A stretch of DNA of 64,000 nucleotides. It comes from Tyzzerella sp. An114. GTDB lineage: Bacteria; Bacillota; Clostridia; Lachnospirales; Anaerotignaceae. How positions within the stretch are numbered: position 1 is the first letter of the stretch; every line of letters begins with the position of its first letter. A program made the position numbers and the translations under genes. The stretch is from positions 1-64,000 of the forward strand of contig NZ_NFLT01000009.1 in the NCBI RefSeq assembly GCF_002161055.1, in the 5' to 3' direction. Positions 10,440 to 30,206 of this stretch are shown piece by piece. A model generated the notes under the pieces. The model did not search any database and was not told where the DNA came from. It saw nothing but the letters and a program-made list of their open reading frames with translations.

Positions 10440-10481
10440 TATACAGAATACAGTTTTAATTAATATTATGGGGGAATTGTT

Positions 10482-11684
10482 ATGGAGAAAGCAGAAAAAA
10501 TTAAAAGTGCTATATATTCTATGGTTATATTCAGAAATTTATTAAAAGACCCTGTTATAAATAAATTTATTGATATGACAGAAAATATGGATAAAGATGT
10601 TTCAGAAGCTGTTAGAGCTTATTCTGAGTTTGTATCAAAACTTTTTGAGAGTAATATTAATTTTAGTGATTATATACTTAATATTGTTCTTGAGGACGAA
10701 AATATATATATGCTTAAAAAATCTCAAAATAATGATGTTGATACAATACTTGAAGATTGCCTTTTAAATGAACTTAAAATACTTGAAAATTTAAGTAAAG
10801 TTACAAGTGCTGAAATAAAATCAGAAATACCATACAGTGGATTTTTTGCTGATTGGAGAACATCAGATTATGACTTTGTAAAAATTTATAAAGATAGAAT
10901 AAAAAATATACATTCTCATGGATACGGTATATTTGCAAAATATCATACATTTATGCTTAAAGAAACTCCAGAGGGAACAAGTATTGTTCCTGTTAAAAAT
11001 CCAGATAAAACAAGACTTTCTGATTTAGGTGGATATGAAAGAGAGAGAAAAGCTGTTATTGATAATACAATAGCACTTATAGAGGGAAAACCAGCTGCAA
11101 ATGTTTTGCTTTATGGTGATAGTGGAACTGGAAAATCTTCAAGTGTTAAGGCTATTGCTAATGAGTTTATAGATAGAGGTTTAAGACTTATAGAACTTAG
11201 AAAAAATCAGCTCAGACTTATGCCTGACCTTTTAGATACATTAAGTTTAAATCCTTTAAAATTTATACTTTTTATAGATGACCTTTCTTTTACTCAAAAT
11301 GATGATGATTTTGCTGCTTTAAAAGCTATATTGGAAGGCTCTGTTTCTGCTAAGGCGGGAAATCTTGCTATATATGCTACAAGTAACAGAAGACATCTTA
11401 TAAAAGAAAGCTTTGGAGATAGAGATGGTGACGACCTTCATGTTAATGATACAATACAGGAACTTGTATCATTAAGTGAACGTTTTGGCCTTACTGTAAC
11501 ATTCCAAAAACCAGATAAAGAAAAATTTATTGAGGTTGTAAATGGTCTTGCTGACAATTATGGAATAAAAATGGATAGAGATGAGCTTGCTTTTAAAGCT
11601 GAAAGTTATGCTGTAAGAAGAAATGGACGTTCTCCACGTATAGCAAAACAGTTTATAGAGATGATAAAATCTGAAGAAGAATAA
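10482..11684 (+). CDS. DUF815-family AAA+ ATPase
   Basis: 400 residues. An N-terminal helical region of about 150 residues is followed by the DUF815 AAA+ core: DLGGYERERKAV, Walker A GDSGTGKSS (about residue 212), Walker B LFIDDLSF, sensor-1-like IYATSNRRHL, and a C-terminal lid with RRNGRSPRIAKQFI. The family is widespread in bacteria without an established job; it is a predicted cytosolic ATPase. The ATG follows GGGGGA. It is monocistronic and followed by a long gene-free stretch. Confidence 0.85.
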   Translation: MEKAEKIKSAIYSMVIFRNLLKDPVINKFIDMTENMDKDVSEAVRAYSEFVSKLFESNINFSDYILNIVLEDENIYMLKKSQNNDVDTILEDCLLNELKILENLSKVTSAEIKSEIPYSGFFADWRTSDYDFVKIYKDRIKNIHSHGYGIFAKYHTFMLKETPEGTSIVPVKNPDKTRLSDLGGYERERKAVIDNTIALIEGKPAANVLLYGDSGTGKSSSVKAIANEFIDRGLRLIELRKNQLRLMPDLLDTLSLNPLKFILFIDDLSFTQNDDDFAALKAILEGSVSAKAGNLAIYATSNRRHLIKESFGDRDGDDLHVNDTIQELVSLSERFGLTVTFQKPDKEKFIEVVNGLADNYGIKMDRDELAFKAESYAVRRNGRSPRIAKQFIEMIKSEEE

Positions 11685-11871
11685 AATCCGTATAAAATTA
11701 TATAATTAAGTATACACCTTATTGTATACAATAAATAATGGGTTTTTATAAAGTTAAAAAATGTAAAAAAATATGTGTGTTTTAAATTTATTTTTTATAT
11801 ATTTTATATGTTGACTAAAAGTGTTAAATGGTGCAATATATAAACATAAATTAAATAAGTAAAAAGACAAT

Positions 11872-11920
11872 GGCGTCAGATAAAATACATTTGAAATGTA
11901 TTTTGTTTGATGCCTTTTTT
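11872..11920 (+). terminator. Long terminator-like hairpin
   Basis: GGCGTCA...AAAATACATTT pairs with AAATGTATTTT...TGATGCC, followed by six T. It lies 190 bases after the DUF815 stop, so it may end that transcript or a short RNA in the gap. Confidence 0.6.
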
Positions 11921-11937
11921 ATTTGATTTATATTGAT

Positions 11938-11965
11938 TTGAATAATTTTTGGTAATATGTAGAAT
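11938..11965 (+). promoter_or_regulatory. Candidate promoter for ncRNA
   Basis: TTGAAT (11938-11943), 16-base spacer, TAGAAT (11960-11965). The predicted start is about 11972. Confidence 0.45.
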
Positions 11966-11971
11966 GAATAA

Positions 11972-12175
11972 AATTCTGCTTATTATATAAAAAAAGAACC
12001 TCCAATCTTTTTTTAGCCTGAAGTCATTACTGTACCCTTTATGGCTGTTTTATATCATTTTTTTCTCCTACAAATGATTTGCCCGAAAAGACAGTCAAAG
12101 AAGTAATGATTTAGTTATATATTTATTCCCATATATAACTTTATAAAAGCCTTAATTCCCCGATTAAGGCTTTTT
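11972..12175 (+). ncRNA. Candidate structured small RNA with three C-rich loops
   Basis: No coding frame fits. A rod is formed by 11 bp (12021-12031 with 12102-12112), 9 bp (12043-12051 with 12088-12096) and 7 bp (12054-12060 with 12072-12078), closed by an 11-base loop containing CTCCT. A perfect 9-bp hairpin follows (12114-12122/12131-12139, loop ending TTCCC). Then comes a terminator stem (12149-12156/12163-12170, loop TCCCCG) with T5. C-rich loops complementary to Shine-Dalgarno sequences are typical of Gram-positive regulatory RNAs. The interrupted rod also recalls 6S RNA, but I could not match its consensus. Confidence 0.5.
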
Positions 12176-12182
12176 ATATTGC

Positions 12183-12215
12183 AAAAGACACCCTTTTTTT
12201 AAAAGGGTGTCTTTT
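12183..12215. terminator. Terminator of the secreted protein gene (bidirectional hairpin)
   Basis: AAAAGACACCCTTTT pairs with AAAAGGGTGTCTTTT. It lies about 50 bases beyond the stop of the minus-strand gene. Confidence 0.7.
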
Positions 12216-12265
12216 GATTGTTGTGTGATGTATGTTTAATTAGGTTTTGGGGACTATTTAATCAA

Positions 12266-13258
12266 TTATTTTAAAAATTCAGATATTTCTGATGAAACTA
12301 CCATGCTACCGTTTTCAAGAGCAACTGGTAATGTAAATGTTTTTGCTTCACCATTTACTGTGTAAGCTGTGCTTCCAAGTGTAACAGATATTGATACACC
12401 ATCTTTTTCAAGTACAACAGGAGCTTCATTTGATGTCCATTTTACTTCAAAACCAGCTTCAACAGCTGTATCTCTTAATGCAACAGCAGTAGCAGCAGGT
12501 GTTTCAATAGCTTTTGTATCAACATTTGTAGTATTGTCAACAGCAGGTGTTTCTATTGCTGGAAGTAAAACTACTTTGATAGGTGTTGTCTGTGCTGGAA
12601 TACTTCTTGTTGATGCTCCATAAATTACAAGAGCGTCGCTTCCTTTAATATCTTCTGCTGTAAGAATATTTTTTGTTCCTGTGATTGATACTATTGATGT
12701 ATCTTCTGCAATGTTAAGTTTAAGTGTGTTGTCTTCATTTACAAGTTCATCGTTGAATTTTCCTGTCATTACAGTTGTTCCTTCAGCATTCATAACAAAT
12801 CCAACTGCTGATGGTGTCATTGGAGGAATACTCATTGTCATTATTGAGTTTGAAGGAAGTACAGCTGTTATTTCCATACCTTCTGTAAGGTCTTTAACAG
12901 TTTTGATGCTTCCGTCTTTTGCATCATAAACAACTGTTGCTGTTGATGTTGTAAATACCATTCCCATATCTTCGTTTTCAATTGTTATTGTAGCAAATTC
13001 GCCATCTTCTTTTGTTTCTGTTGTTATAGTTGTGATTTTTCCAGCTTCTGTTGTGTATGCTTTCTGTACTTCAACTGGTTTATCAGTAGCTGTTTCGTTT
13101 ATAAGCATAATTCCGTCTTCAGCAGCTTTCTCAGCTGTCTCAGCAGATACAGGGTCACCGTAACCAACTACTGTTGAGTCTTCAGCAAAAGCTGTCATTG
13201 AAAGTACAGAAACTGCCGCCATTGTTGTTAATATAAATCTTCCTAAATTCTTTTTCAT
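12266..13258 (-). CDS. Secreted protein with copper-amine-oxidase-N-like C-terminal domain
   Basis: 330 residues behind AAAGGAG. Sec signal peptide MKKNLGRFILTTMAAVSVLSMTAFA (cleavage after AFA), then a beta-rich region of about 190 residues with no family I recognise (TTSTATVVYDAKDGSIKTV, TGTKNILTAEDIKGSDALVIYG). A Thr/Pro-rich linker carries AIETPA twice. A C-terminal domain of about 75 residues (SVTLGSTAYTVNGEAKTFTLPV...GSMVVSSEISEFL) resembles the stalk domain found in many clostridial secreted proteins. No enzyme motif is visible. Probably extracellular and wall-associated. The domain match is by pattern only. Confidence 0.75.
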   Translation of the reverse strand: MKKNLGRFILTTMAAVSVLSMTAFAEDSTVVGYGDPVSAETAEKAAEDGIMLINETATDKPVEVQKAYTTEAGKITTITTETKEDGEFATITIENEDMGMVFTTSTATVVYDAKDGSIKTVKDLTEGMEITAVLPSNSIMTMSIPPMTPSAVGFVMNAEGTTVMTGKFNDELVNEDNTLKLNIAEDTSIVSITGTKNILTAEDIKGSDALVIYGASTRSIPAQTTPIKVVLLPAIETPAVDNTTNVDTKAIETPAATAVALRDTAVEAGFEVKWTSNEAPVVLEKDGVSISVTLGSTAYTVNGEAKTFTLPVALENGSMVVSSEISEFLK

Positions 13259-13485: not shown

Positions 13486-15894
13486 ATGAAAATACGAAGC
13501 AAAATGTTTGCTGTTATAATAATATTTTCTGTTCTTCCTGTTATTTTGGTTTCCTTTATAATAAATCATACATATAACAAAAATACAGAAGATGAAATAC
13601 TTGAGAGTCTTAGTTCCTCTGTGCATATATATGAGAGTACAGTGGAATCATTTTTTGACCAAAAAAAGTTAACACTTGATACAATATCAAATATTACAGA
13701 AGTAAAAGATTATATTTTAAATACAAATGAAAATTTGAATTATTATAACCATGAAAGTTATGTTCATATTAAAGATGTAATAAATTCATGTGTTGATAAT
13801 GGTGATTATATAATTGCAATTGATATAGTAAGTAGTAATAATCAAGTTGTTTTTTCAAGCAAAGATAGACATGAAAAAAATATTTCAAAATTTGAAAAGG
13901 CTAATAAAATGAAAAGCACAGAATATAAAGGTGTTGTTTATTCTGATGCAAATATTGAGAGTGATACAGGAAAAACAATTTTTTCAATAGGTGTTCCAAT
14001 ATATTATGCTAATGAATATATTGGATATTCTACAATGAGTATAGACTTGGAATATCTTATAAGACTTTCTGACCAATCAGAATTTTATAAAACAGGTTAT
14101 ATATCTGTTATAGATTCTCAAAATTTTTCTGTTGCTTCAAAAGGTCCTTATGTAGGAAATTATATAAATGAGATTTCTTCAGATGCAAAAAATACTTTTC
14201 CTAAAGAATGGAATGCAGTAACTGAAAAGGGTGAGGATGAAGGATTTTTCTCCTATTACATTGATGGCATTAAAAAAATAGCCTTTTATAGTAATATAAA
14301 TAAAACTGGTTGGTATGTTGTGGGTAATGTAAATATAGATGAAGTTTTTGCCCCTCTTAATGTGACAAGTAAAGTTGTTGTAATGTTTGTTTTTGTAATA
14401 CTTATTTTTGATGCAATAGCATTTTTTATTTATATGAGAAGTATAACTATACCTATGAAAAAAATGACCATAGCCACAGAGGGTGTATATAAAGGTGATT
14501 ATAGTATACGAATGGAATATGATGAAGACAATGAGTTGGGACTTATAGCAAAAACATTTAATAATCTTATGGATAACATACAGCTAAATACAAACAAACT
14601 TAAAAATCTAAACAATGATTTTAGTATACTTACATCTAATATTCCAGGAGGAATGATAAGATGTACCGTTGATGAGTTCTGTGAACTTTATTTTGTAAGT
14701 GAAAGTTTTCTTAAATTAATGAAGTGTTCAAGAGGAGACTTGGAATACGCTTATGACGGAAGATATATGGAAATGATACATCCTGATGATGTAGATTATG
14801 TTAGAGATATAGTTTTGGACATTAAAGAAGATGGTGATATTGAAGATATTGAATATAGAATAGTTCGTCCTGATTCTTCAATAATATGGGTTAAAGATAG
14901 AAGTAGAGTTGTAAGTGACGGAAATGGTAAGAGATGGATGTATACAATTCTTATAGATATAACCGTTGATAAAATGTATCAGGAAGAGTTTAAAAAGAGC
15001 GAAGAAAGATTTTCTAAGATTGTAAACTGGTCTGATAATATTATTTTTGAATGGGATAGCAATAGAGGAAATATTGGTGTTTCTGATAATGTTAGATTTA
15101 AAATAGGTTATAATCCTTTAAGACTTTCATCAGATGGAAAATCAATAGAAGTTGATGGCATATTCCCAGAAGATAAAGAAAAATTCTGTAATATGTTTGA
15201 CCGAATATTTAAAGGAGAGCTGGGAATAGAGGAAGATGTAAGATTTAAAAAGAAACCTGAAAATACTTATGCATGGTTTAAAGTTAAAGTTGGAGCTTTG
15301 CGTACTGATGGTAACAAAATATATAAAGTCATAGGTATAATTTATAACATAGATAATATAAAAAATCATGAAAATATAATAAAGGGACGACGTGACAGTT
15401 TTACAGGATTTTATACAAGAGAAGGTATGCAACTTGTTGTTGATGATGACATAACAGAGAGTCTTGAGGTTGTAAAAAAAGCAGTAATAATATTTGATAT
15501 AAGAGGATTTAACCACCTTAAAGAAGTTATGGGTATAAAATTTTCAGAAGCTGTAATAAGCGATATTGCTGGTAAATTATCTAGTGCCTATGATAAAAGT
15601 GATGTTATAGCTAGAATAAGTGAGAGTAGATTTGCTGTATTTACGAAATTTGCCGCATCAAAAAGTATGCTTATTGTCAATATAAATGAGGTTATGGATA
15701 CATTAAAAAGTATATACAGGAATAGTGAATTAGAATGTTCAATACAAGTATGTGTAGGTGTCAGTCGATACCCTAAAGACGGAGAAACATTTGAAGCTCT
15801 TTATCAGAAAGCAGAAACAGCTCTTTTTGAGGCAATAGAAAAGGGAAATGGTAAATATGTTATATATGAAGAAAATGAAAAGCAAATGGATTGA
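13486..15894 (+). CDS. Membrane sensor: Cache-HAMP-PAS-PAS-degenerate GGDEF
   Basis: 802 residues. Membrane helix at residues 6-28, extracellular double-Cache-type sensor (about 35-290), second membrane helix (about 300-322), HAMP (TIPMKKMTIATEGVYKGDYS), two PAS regions (about 380-500 and 510-630), then a C-terminal GGDEF-like domain (RDSFTGFYTREGMQ..., FDIRGFNHLKEVMG). The catalytic signature that should read R-x-GGDEF is R710-ISESRF, so both glycines and the acidic pair are gone. Diguanylate cyclase activity is not expected; the domain may bind a nucleotide or a partner. Ribosome site GAGGG. A LysR gene follows after 24 bases, probably co-transcribed. Confidence 0.88.
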   Translation: MKIRSKMFAVIIIFSVLPVILVSFIINHTYNKNTEDEILESLSSSVHIYESTVESFFDQKKLTLDTISNITEVKDYILNTNENLNYYNHESYVHIKDVINSCVDNGDYIIAIDIVSSNNQVVFSSKDRHEKNISKFEKANKMKSTEYKGVVYSDANIESDTGKTIFSIGVPIYYANEYIGYSTMSIDLEYLIRLSDQSEFYKTGYISVIDSQNFSVASKGPYVGNYINEISSDAKNTFPKEWNAVTEKGEDEGFFSYYIDGIKKIAFYSNINKTGWYVVGNVNIDEVFAPLNVTSKVVVMFVFVILIFDAIAFFIYMRSITIPMKKMTIATEGVYKGDYSIRMEYDEDNELGLIAKTFNNLMDNIQLNTNKLKNLNNDFSILTSNIPGGMIRCTVDEFCELYFVSESFLKLMKCSRGDLEYAYDGRYMEMIHPDDVDYVRDIVLDIKEDGDIEDIEYRIVRPDSSIIWVKDRSRVVSDGNGKRWMYTILIDITVDKMYQEEFKKSEERFSKIVNWSDNIIFEWDSNRGNIGVSDNVRFKIGYNPLRLSSDGKSIEVDGIFPEDKEKFCNMFDRIFKGELGIEEDVRFKKKPENTYAWFKVKVGALRTDGNKIYKVIGIIYNIDNIKNHENIIKGRRDSFTGFYTREGMQLVVDDDITESLEVVKKAVIIFDIRGFNHLKEVMGIKFSEAVISDIAGKLSSAYDKSDVIARISESRFAVFTKFAASKSMLIVNINEVMDTLKSIYRNSELECSIQVCVGVSRYPKDGETFEALYQKAETALFEAIEKGNGKYVIYEENEKQMD

Positions 15895-28129: not shown

Positions 28130-29815
28130 TTATTCCTCCTCTGTCTTTTCCATGTCTCTAAGCATTTTATTTACTGTACTTACAACGGCACGAAGTGAAG
28201 ATTTGCTTACACTGCTTGATGTACCTGCTCCGTAATATCTCTTACCATTTTCTCCTCTTGTCTCAATGTATGAAATAGCTCTAGCTTTTGTACCAAGCTC
28301 CATTGAGTGACCACGATAGTCTATAATATCAATATGTATATTAAGGAAATCTTCAATAGCACGACAGAATGCAGAAACAACACCGTTTCCTTCTCCTGTT
28401 ATAAAGTGTTTCTCACCCTTATAAAGTATTTCTGCCTCTATGTTTACTATATCCCAATCACTGTCAACTGTTGTTGAACGATGTGTTGTAAGCTGGAATG
28501 GTGTTCTTATATCAACATATTCCTGTTTGAATATTTCATAAATCTTTTCTGGACTTACTTCAGACTGTAATTCATCTGAAACATGAGTTACAACTGCTCC
28601 AACGTCTTTCTGGAAAGATTTTGGCATATGGAGACCATAGTTCTGTTCAAGTATGAATGTAACTCCACCTTTTCCAGACTGGCTGTTTATACGGATAATT
28701 GGGTCATATGTTCTTCCAACATCAACAGGGTCAATAGGGAGATATGGAACTTCCCATCTGTCTGGATGTTTTTTCATAGCTTCCATACCTTTTCTTATAG
28801 CATCCTGATGTGAGCCAGAGAATGCTGTATATACAAGTTCACCAGCATAAGGATGTCTTGGGTGCACGTTCATTCTTGTTGAGCTTTCATAAATTTCTAT
28901 AAGATCATTTATGTTACTAAAATCAAGTCCAGGGTCAATTCCCTGTGTAAAAAGGTTCATACCAACATTCATAATGTCACAGTTTCCTGTTCTCTCACCA
29001 TTTCCAAAGAGTGTTCCCTCAACTCTGTCAGCTCCTGCCATCATAGCAAGTTCTGTTGCTGCTACGGCTGTTCCTCTGTCATTATGAGCATGAAGGCTTA
29101 TTATAACGTTTTCTCTGTTTTTAAGGTTTCTTCCCATATATTCAATTTGGTCTGCATAGAGGTTTGGTGTTCCCATTTCAACAGTTGAAGGAAGATTTAT
29201 TATAACTTTCTTCTCTGGTGTTGGTTCCCATACATCTATTACAGCGTTACATATTTCAGCAGCAAAATCCATTTCTGTTCCTGTAAAACTTTCAGGTGAA
29301 TATTCAAATGTGAAATCTGTTTCAGGATATTTTGCAGCCATTTCTTTAACAAGTTTTGCACCGTATACAGCAAGGTCTATTGTCTGTTCTTTGCTGTTTC
29401 CAAAAACAACATCTCTCTGAAGTGTTGATGTTGAGTTGTAAAGATGAACAACAGCTTTTTTAACTCCTCTTAAAGCCTTAAAAGTTCTTTCTATAATATG
29501 TCCTCTTGACTGTGTAAGAACCTGTACTGTTACATCATCAGGTATAAGTCTGTTTTCTATAAGTTCTCTTGTAAATTCGTATTCTGTATCTGAAGCGGCA
29601 GGGAAGCCTATTTCTATTTCTTTAAATCCTGTTTTTACAAGGAAGTTGAAAAAGTTCAGCTTTTGATTAAGTCCCATTGGAGTTTCAAGGGCCTGATTTC
29701 CATCTCTAAGGTCAACACTACACCATATAGGAGCTTTTTCGATTTTTTTGTTAGGCCAAGTTCTGTCTTTTAAATCAACTGTTTCATAAGGTCTGTATTT
29801 CTGATAATTTTTCAT
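28130..29815 (-). CDS. leuA: 2-isopropylmalate synthase
   Basis: 561 residues, the long fungal/actinobacterial-like LeuA2 type. TIM-barrel catalytic domain with WCSVDLRDGNQALETPM and metal-site SLHAHNDRGTAVAATELA, then a C-terminal LeuA dimer/allosteric domain (from about 430). Condenses acetyl-CoA with 2-oxoisovalerate, the committed step of leucine synthesis, normally inhibited by leucine. First gene of the operon, controlled by the T-box upstream. Confidence 0.96.
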   Translation of the reverse strand: MKNYQKYRPYETVDLKDRTWPNKKIEKAPIWCSVDLRDGNQALETPMGLNQKLNFFNFLVKTGFKEIEIGFPAASDTEYEFTRELIENRLIPDDVTVQVLTQSRGHIIERTFKALRGVKKAVVHLYNSTSTLQRDVVFGNSKEQTIDLAVYGAKLVKEMAAKYPETDFTFEYSPESFTGTEMDFAAEICNAVIDVWEPTPEKKVIINLPSTVEMGTPNLYADQIEYMGRNLKNRENVIISLHAHNDRGTAVAATELAMMAGADRVEGTLFGNGERTGNCDIMNVGMNLFTQGIDPGLDFSNINDLIEIYESSTRMNVHPRHPYAGELVYTAFSGSHQDAIRKGMEAMKKHPDRWEVPYLPIDPVDVGRTYDPIIRINSQSGKGGVTFILEQNYGLHMPKSFQKDVGAVVTHVSDELQSEVSPEKIYEIFKQEYVDIRTPFQLTTHRSTTVDSDWDIVNIEAEILYKGEKHFITGEGNGVVSAFCRAIEDFLNIHIDIIDYRGHSMELGTKARAISYIETRGENGKRYYGAGTSSSVSKSSLRAVVSTVNKMLRDMEKTEEE

Positions 29816-29911: not shown

Positions 29912-29952
29912 AAAAAAACCTTTCATCTCTATTATATTAGAGATGAAAGGTT
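29912..29952 (-). terminator. T-box terminator of the leu operon
   Basis: On the minus strand AACCTTTCATCTCT pairs with AGAGATGAAAGGTT, followed by seven T. Confidence 0.9.
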
Positions 29953-30185
29953 ATATAACACTTCCACGGTACCACTCTTATTTACTCCCAGTTGGAGTAC
30001 ACTCGTCAGATACTTGAAAAAAATCGTATATCCTGTTCTTTTAACGGTGAACCTCCGGCACAGCCTATAATTTCTTTCAGTGTGCCACTCCAAGGCGAGT
30101 TCAAAACATTTTGGAATACTGTCTTTCACCAACCGACAGCTCTCTGAATTCCTCCATGAATTTACTATTCCTTTTCATAGTGTTT
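29912..30185 (-). ncRNA. Leucine T-box riboswitch
   Basis: Read on the minus strand. The hallmark AGAGTGGTACCGTGG (29978-29964) precedes a terminator. The stem I region contains AGAGAGCTGTCGGTTGGTG, and the specifier loop reads GAACTCGCC with CTC (30099-30097), a leucine codon. Uncharged tRNA-Leu should stabilise the antiterminator through the T-box bulge. Specifier and downstream leuACDB agree. Confidence 0.93.
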
Positions 30186-30206
30186 ATCTTGATTTTTATA
30201 TGAGAT

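Follow-up and report, generated by a model that had tools for sequence, protein, structure and literature searches.

Does the stretch of 204 bases at positions 11972-12175 encode a structured small RNA, and if so, what might its C-rich loops do? The stretch belongs to a window of 64,000 nucleotides from Tyzzerella sp. An114, which is the whole piece of DNA analysed here. It lies between a gene for a DUF815 AAA ATPase (PF05673; 10482-11684, + strand) and a convergent gene encoding a Cu_amine_oxidN1 domain (PF07833; 12266-13258, - strand). The first-pass annotation had described it as free of genes, and this was borne out: no open reading frame of at least 40 aa lies within it, and we rejected a coding gene because the only two frames of at least 20 aa that touch it (25 aa on the - strand and 21 aa on the + strand) are not convincing. 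A short frame at 11870 that starts with ATGGCGTCRGAT, both here and in the second species discussed below, was likewise dropped; it has no ribosome site and, judged by eye, diverges after four codons. A cis-acting leader is ruled out, since the nearest downstream gene on the + strand begins at 13486, past a terminator-like hairpin and the convergent gene. Elsewhere in the window, a ZMP/ZTP riboswitch lies at 1701-1781, just 5' of a formate/nitrite transporter gene (1851-2612), and an ordinary T-box leader at 29936-30187 on the - strand, 5' of a 2-isopropylmalate synthase-like gene (28130-29815).

The stretch folds far more stably than expected from its composition. Its minimum free energy is -48 kcal/mol, compared with -24.5 +/- 3.8 kcal/mol in 200 dinucleotide shuffles (z -6.2), none of which folded as well. 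On the + strand, the predicted fold contains a first hairpin (11988-12015), whose loop carries CCTCC (11999-12003), identical to the core of the ribosome's anti-Shine-Dalgarno sequence. This is followed by a rod of stacked stems (12021-12112), built from a closing helix, an internal loop with CCC (12035-12037), a middle helix of 13 pairs (12038-12051/12088-12101), an internal loop TTGCCCGA (12079-12086) that holds GCCC (12081-12084), and an apical hairpin with CTCCT (12065-12069) in its loop. A perfect hairpin with CCC (12128-12130) in its loop occupies 12113-12140, and a last hairpin, with the loop AATTCCCCGATT and CCCC at 12158-12161, extends from about 12142 to 12178 (hairpin and T's at 12145-12175). 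Both the rod and the perfect hairpin had been proposed in the first-pass annotation and are found here, the latter with 10 Watson-Crick pairs where 9 bp had been given. Upstream, a conserved + strand hairpin, TAATA...TATTA with GYAGA/TCTGC inside (11953-11985), forms in the separate folds of both species with a single U-G to C-G change between them; this hairpin could belong to the 5' portion of the RNA or coincide with part of its promoter.

When 60 relatives were searched at the DNA level, one clear orthologue emerged, in a second species of the same genus (G002), at 80% identity and E 2.7e-36. It sits in the same intergenic region, flanked by the same two genes, and the fold of its RNA has a z score of -7.0. 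In 40-column windows along the RNA, identity fluctuates between 0.55 and 0.85. The first hairpin and the closing helix hardly vary between the two species, the first hairpin having the same sequence except for the lengths of its A and T runs. In the middle helix, four of the 13 pairs changed on both sides, two changed on one side, and none is broken. With 10 substitutions on these 13 pairs, the random chance of sparing all 13 is 4.5e-05, an optimistic figure in that the helix was chosen after seeing it.

We examined the remaining helices in two alignments. In a two-row MAFFT alignment, whose structure was the consensus that RNAalifold derived from those two rows, 40 pairs in four helices (79 cells) are standard in both species, so that the value of 100% paired arises partly by construction; shifting the partner by 1-3 columns as a control gave 45-55% paired. 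Across this whole alignment, four pairs changed on both sides, all in the middle helix, and four on one side. The covariation tool's shuffle control was matched by 30 of 500 shuffles, a control that is weak with two rows, and the covariation amounts to one comparison of two sequences. A second alignment used each species' own fold as well, and bears on a check named in the first-pass annotation, namely whether substitutions in relatives break the stems. For this one orthologue the outcome was mixed: of the 73 pairs of the window's fold that mapped, 64 remain standard in G002, and the middle helix is compensated, but nine are non-standard, with seven more pairs unmapped. Seven of the nine fall in the apical helix, which G002 replaces with an out-of-register stem, and in the lower stem of the last hairpin; the other two are 11952-11986 and 12031-12102, the latter an end pair of the closing helix. 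In G002 the last hairpin keeps an identical loop, with its upper stem partly compensated and its lower stem re-paired. Six pairs alternate between G-U and Watson-Crick from one species to the other, a pattern that fits an RNA read on the + strand only, because the same switches would be A-C mismatches on the opposite strand.

The first-pass annotation had drawn attention to three C-rich loops. Those three runs, CTCCT (12065-12069), TTCCC (ending at 12130) and TCCCC (ending at 12161), do lie in loops, but the total is six: the unpaired C-runs are the CCTCC, CCC, CTCCT, GCCC, CCC and CCCC located above. An automatic definition likewise counts six C-rich loops in the window and six in G002, whereas 500 shuffles of each averaged 2.35 and 2.33, respectively, with a maximum of five and none reaching six. 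The total of unpaired C's is not unusual, at 25 in the window versus 24.3 +/- 1.9 in shuffles and 24 in G002 versus 26.7 +/- 1.9. Their clustering in the loops of so stable a fold, on the other hand, is unusual.

These loop C's are also kept between the species. The six runs contain 20 C's, of which G002 retains 19, compared with 7 of 13 paired C's (Fisher p 0.008) and 12 of 22 G's; the run in the loop of the 12113-12140 hairpin is displaced by one base (TTCCCA versus TCCCGA). The claim is limited to the C's, which are retained in the loops while the middle and last stems change; loops in general are not better conserved, as over all columns 108 of 133 paired and 49 of 58 unpaired positions are conserved, about equal proportions. 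Unpaired, conserved C-rich motifs in a structured RNA, a mark of the C-rich-loop antisense sRNAs of low-GC Gram-positives (a functional kind and not a homology family), are found in both species. The compensatory changes in the second species and the kept loop C's support the original proposal of a structured RNA with C-rich loops, and we consider it very probable that the locus is a real, conserved, structured RNA.

Where this RNA begins and ends can be narrowed to a few alternatives. A promoter-like element had been noted in the first-pass annotation, but it does not stand out from chance: a consensus scan of 11650-12300 lists 4 promoter-like sites versus 5.8 expected from shuffles, and the 24 bases just upstream of the stretch (11926-11949) have no counterpart in G002. 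Further upstream, a promoter-like block, TTGACT-17-CAATAT (11811-11839, + strand), is conserved in the G002 alignment, at 78% identity compared with 45-62% further upstream. The scan lists this block in neither species; it is a possible promoter of a longer RNA. Between it and the RNA, the terminator scan finds a hairpin with a T-run (11872-11920, + strand) in the window, and its G002 counterpart keeps the stem base and the T-run but is not listed as a terminator. The conserved block followed by a terminator-like hairpin (11811-11920) could represent another, very short RNA or else the 5' region of the RNA described here. Two readings result. Either 11811-11920 stands apart, as a short RNA of its own or as the tail of the DUF815 message, in which case a second, weak promoter would lie near 11950, where both species have TGnTAATA, or there is a single RNA, about 370 bases long, that has a hairpin at its 5' end.

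At the 3' side, the terminator of the first-pass annotation stands in part. In the window the last hairpin is indeed followed by T's (12145-12175), but the T-run is missing in G002, so this hairpin may terminate transcription in the window and not in G002. The next hairpin (12182-12216, + strand) is listed as terminator-like in both species and is probably shared as a terminator with the convergent gene. The RNA would therefore measure about 200 to 370 bases depending on its 5' end, with its 3' end at either the 12145-12175 hairpin or the 12182-12216 terminator.

How widely is the locus distributed? The DNA search, which covered 60 relatives, returned matches in 7 genomes, the window's own among them; those beyond its own locus and the G002 orthologue were short, covering 28-62 query bases, and were taken for chance. 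A covariance model (R1) built from the two sequences had hits at E <= 1 in 3 of 58 genomes of the family, namely G000, G002 and, weakly, G027 (25.9 bits, E 0.09); the G027 match, a hairpin just before a gene start without CCC runs, was judged to be chance. With strict search filters, and in order and class sets that are draws from larger groups, the model had hits in 2 of 392 genomes of the order and in 1 of 391 of the class, this last being the window's own. Laxer filters yielded no clear copy in the third member of the genus (G001), where the matches had E 5.8 and 9.4, and one extra match in G002 at E 6.3, which was judged to be chance. An exact 20-base piece was found in a genome contig database on G002's contig and on one Bacillus contig, which the model matched over 22 bases only; a search of viral contigs with two exact patterns gave no match.

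In the third member, with a genome 90% complete, the order of the two flanking genes is preserved (L059, G001:C149). Its DUF815 gene and the convergent gene are separated by 53 bases between stop codons (our own count), mostly one terminator-like hairpin, versus 581 bases in the window; the RNA and its upstream block are missing as a unit at this place. The window's DUF815 protein is 84% identical to that of G002 and 77% to that of G001. Either a gain before the split of the window's genome and G002 or a loss in G001 might account for this. Most likely, the RNA is lineage-specific, being found in one genus among the genomes searched.

No family of Rfam 15 reaches its gathering score on the stretch; the 22 matches up to E 10 within 11680-12270 are all below their gathering scores. 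LhrC, RsaE and RNAIII are families present in Rfam, and neither these nor the other described Rfam sRNAs match at the gathering score. The structure, its conservation in one other species, the strand and the lack of an Rfam family at threshold are thus computed properties of the locus.

To place the loops in the context of translation, we compared them with 302 start sites drawn from 384 kb, or 14% of the genome, a set whose Shine-Dalgarno counts are biased upward, since sites without a recognisable Shine-Dalgarno sequence were left out and start codons were chosen for the best one. GGAGG occurs at 126 of the 302 sites, GGGG at 49 and GGGGAATT at 6. The earlier statement that sites are mostly GGAGG was therefore overstated, although GGAGG is the commonest class. 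GGGG-type Shine-Dalgarno sites (for example, at 10470-10478 and just before 16925) form an unusual class, for which we know of no reason. Exposed CCUCC, CUCCU and UUCCCC would meet many of these start sites, as judged by complementarity, while the GCCC loop suits them poorly, its longest match being 7 bases at 2 of 302 sites.

Two candidate targets flank the RNA itself. The DUF815 start site contains GGGGAATT (10471-10478, + strand), which is perfectly complementary to 8 bases in the last loop, and this match is present in both species; the start site of the convergent gene is complementary to the CUCCU loop. Among 22 orthologous start sites in 80 kb of G002, three keep a match of at least 7 bases, two of them in the flanking genes. 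G001, which is without the RNA, has both sites too, so there is no sign of co-evolution and both are candidates only. Complementarity to start sites is in any case expected of any C-rich loop.

On balance, we favour, with moderate confidence, a lineage-specific, trans-acting antisense RNA that would act through several loops on translation starts. Helices would hold six C-rich sequences unpaired (CCUCC, CCC, CUCCU, GCCC, CCC and CCCC), these loops would start base-pairing at G-rich Shine-Dalgarno sites in several mRNAs, and the pairing would block ribosome binding and repress translation without Hfq. Separate transcription, pairing with Shine-Dalgarno sites and repression are the steps that we infer. 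Such an action would fit the anatomy of the RNA, the published sRNAs of the same build and the undetected Hfq: a search that found Hfq in 5 of 14 control genomes found no Hfq gene in the three genomes of the genus. A bolder version is improbable: a multivalent anti-Shine-Dalgarno mimic whose six loops might fit the start-site classes GGAGG, AGGAG, GGGGAAUU and GGGAAUAAA, so that one RNA could meet many mRNAs and restrain initiation broadly, the whole locus being acquired or lost in one piece within a genus.

The same loops could instead be read by a protein or another partner, and not by pairing with start sites. Some motifs are conserved beyond the C-run itself, TTGCCCGA and AATTCCCCGATT being identical in G002, which exceeds what a generic anti-Shine-Dalgarno core would need, and the poor fit of the GCCC loop to start sites points the same way; no partner is known, Hfq and CsrA being the candidates looked for, and we regard this reading as unlikely. 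The position of the RNA, on the same strand as DUF815 and directly 3' of it, together with the lack of a promoter above chance, would also suit a stretch that lacks its own promoter and derives from the DUF815 mRNA, either as part of its 3' end or as an RNA processed from its 3' UTR. Yet the terminator-like hairpin at 11872-11920 stands in between, the conserved promoter-like block at 11811-11839 precedes the RNA, and G001 does without the stretch, which together leave this origin rather improbable.

Two further readings concern known regulators and are both very improbable. The first-pass annotation gave a 6S-like RNA, binding RNA polymerase, as its main alternative. Like 6S RNA, the RNA here is rod-shaped, presumably stand-alone and of similar size; in contrast, none of the 22 matches found in 11680-12270 at up to E 10 is to the 6S model (RF00013), and the genome's 6S RNA lies on another contig (C12), where it scores 68.7 bits, above the cut-off. 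As for a CsrA sponge on the - strand, the reverse complements of the C-rich loops would present GGAGG, AGGAGA, GGGAAU and GGGGAAU in loops, and the window's - strand does beat shuffles (z -3.9). This strand loses the middle helix, however, and the G-U pairs favour the + strand; in G002, the - strand retains the helix but folds at -47.8 kcal/mol, compared with -53.3 kcal/mol for the + strand. The window's genome has no CsrA above the cut-off (18.5 bits only), although G002 has one, so the combination typical of CsrB/RsmZ-like sponges, GGA loops on the transcribed strand and CsrA in the genome, was not found. CsrA is patchy within the genus, being present in G002 (C6:102514-102663, 71.6 bits) and below the cut-off in the window's genome and in G001.

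The multi-loop antisense reading thus leads to comparison with described RNAs. Our searches for publications on sRNAs of such Clostridia turned up no report of a comparable RNA, and the papers found on the general kind do not name this one. With the six-loop locus in two of the three genus genomes examined and not at this place in the third, the genus offers a natural comparison for mRNA control; even if this is one more genus-specific sRNA, no Rfam 15 family covers it. Overall, the RNA looks like an example of a known style, the C-rich-loop antisense sRNA, and not like a new kind. LhrC1-5 of Listeria monocytogenes are described as carrying three redundant CU-rich sites in loops or single-stranded parts, which bind G-rich sequence before the start codon, with Hfq not required (PMC4132741). 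The RNA here resembles them in its redundant CU-rich sites, but LhrC is reported with three sites and five gene copies (PMC4132741), whereas this RNA has six C-runs in one copy and no listed sequence match to LhrC. IsrR of staphylococci, as reported, has three C-rich regions, is Fur-regulated and acts independently of Hfq (PMC9410917); the two share single-stranded C-rich regions, a terminator (a putative one here) and an AT-rich host, and differ in the number of C-rich regions and in that nothing here points to iron. In Staphylococcus aureus, accessible UCCC loops of RNAIII and the Rsa RNAs are described as pairing with Shine-Dalgarno sites (PMC3861533). RNAIII, at 514 nt, encodes a peptide, while the RNA here has no convincing open reading frame; what it has in common with RNAIII and the Rsa RNAs is the display of C motifs in several hairpin loops.
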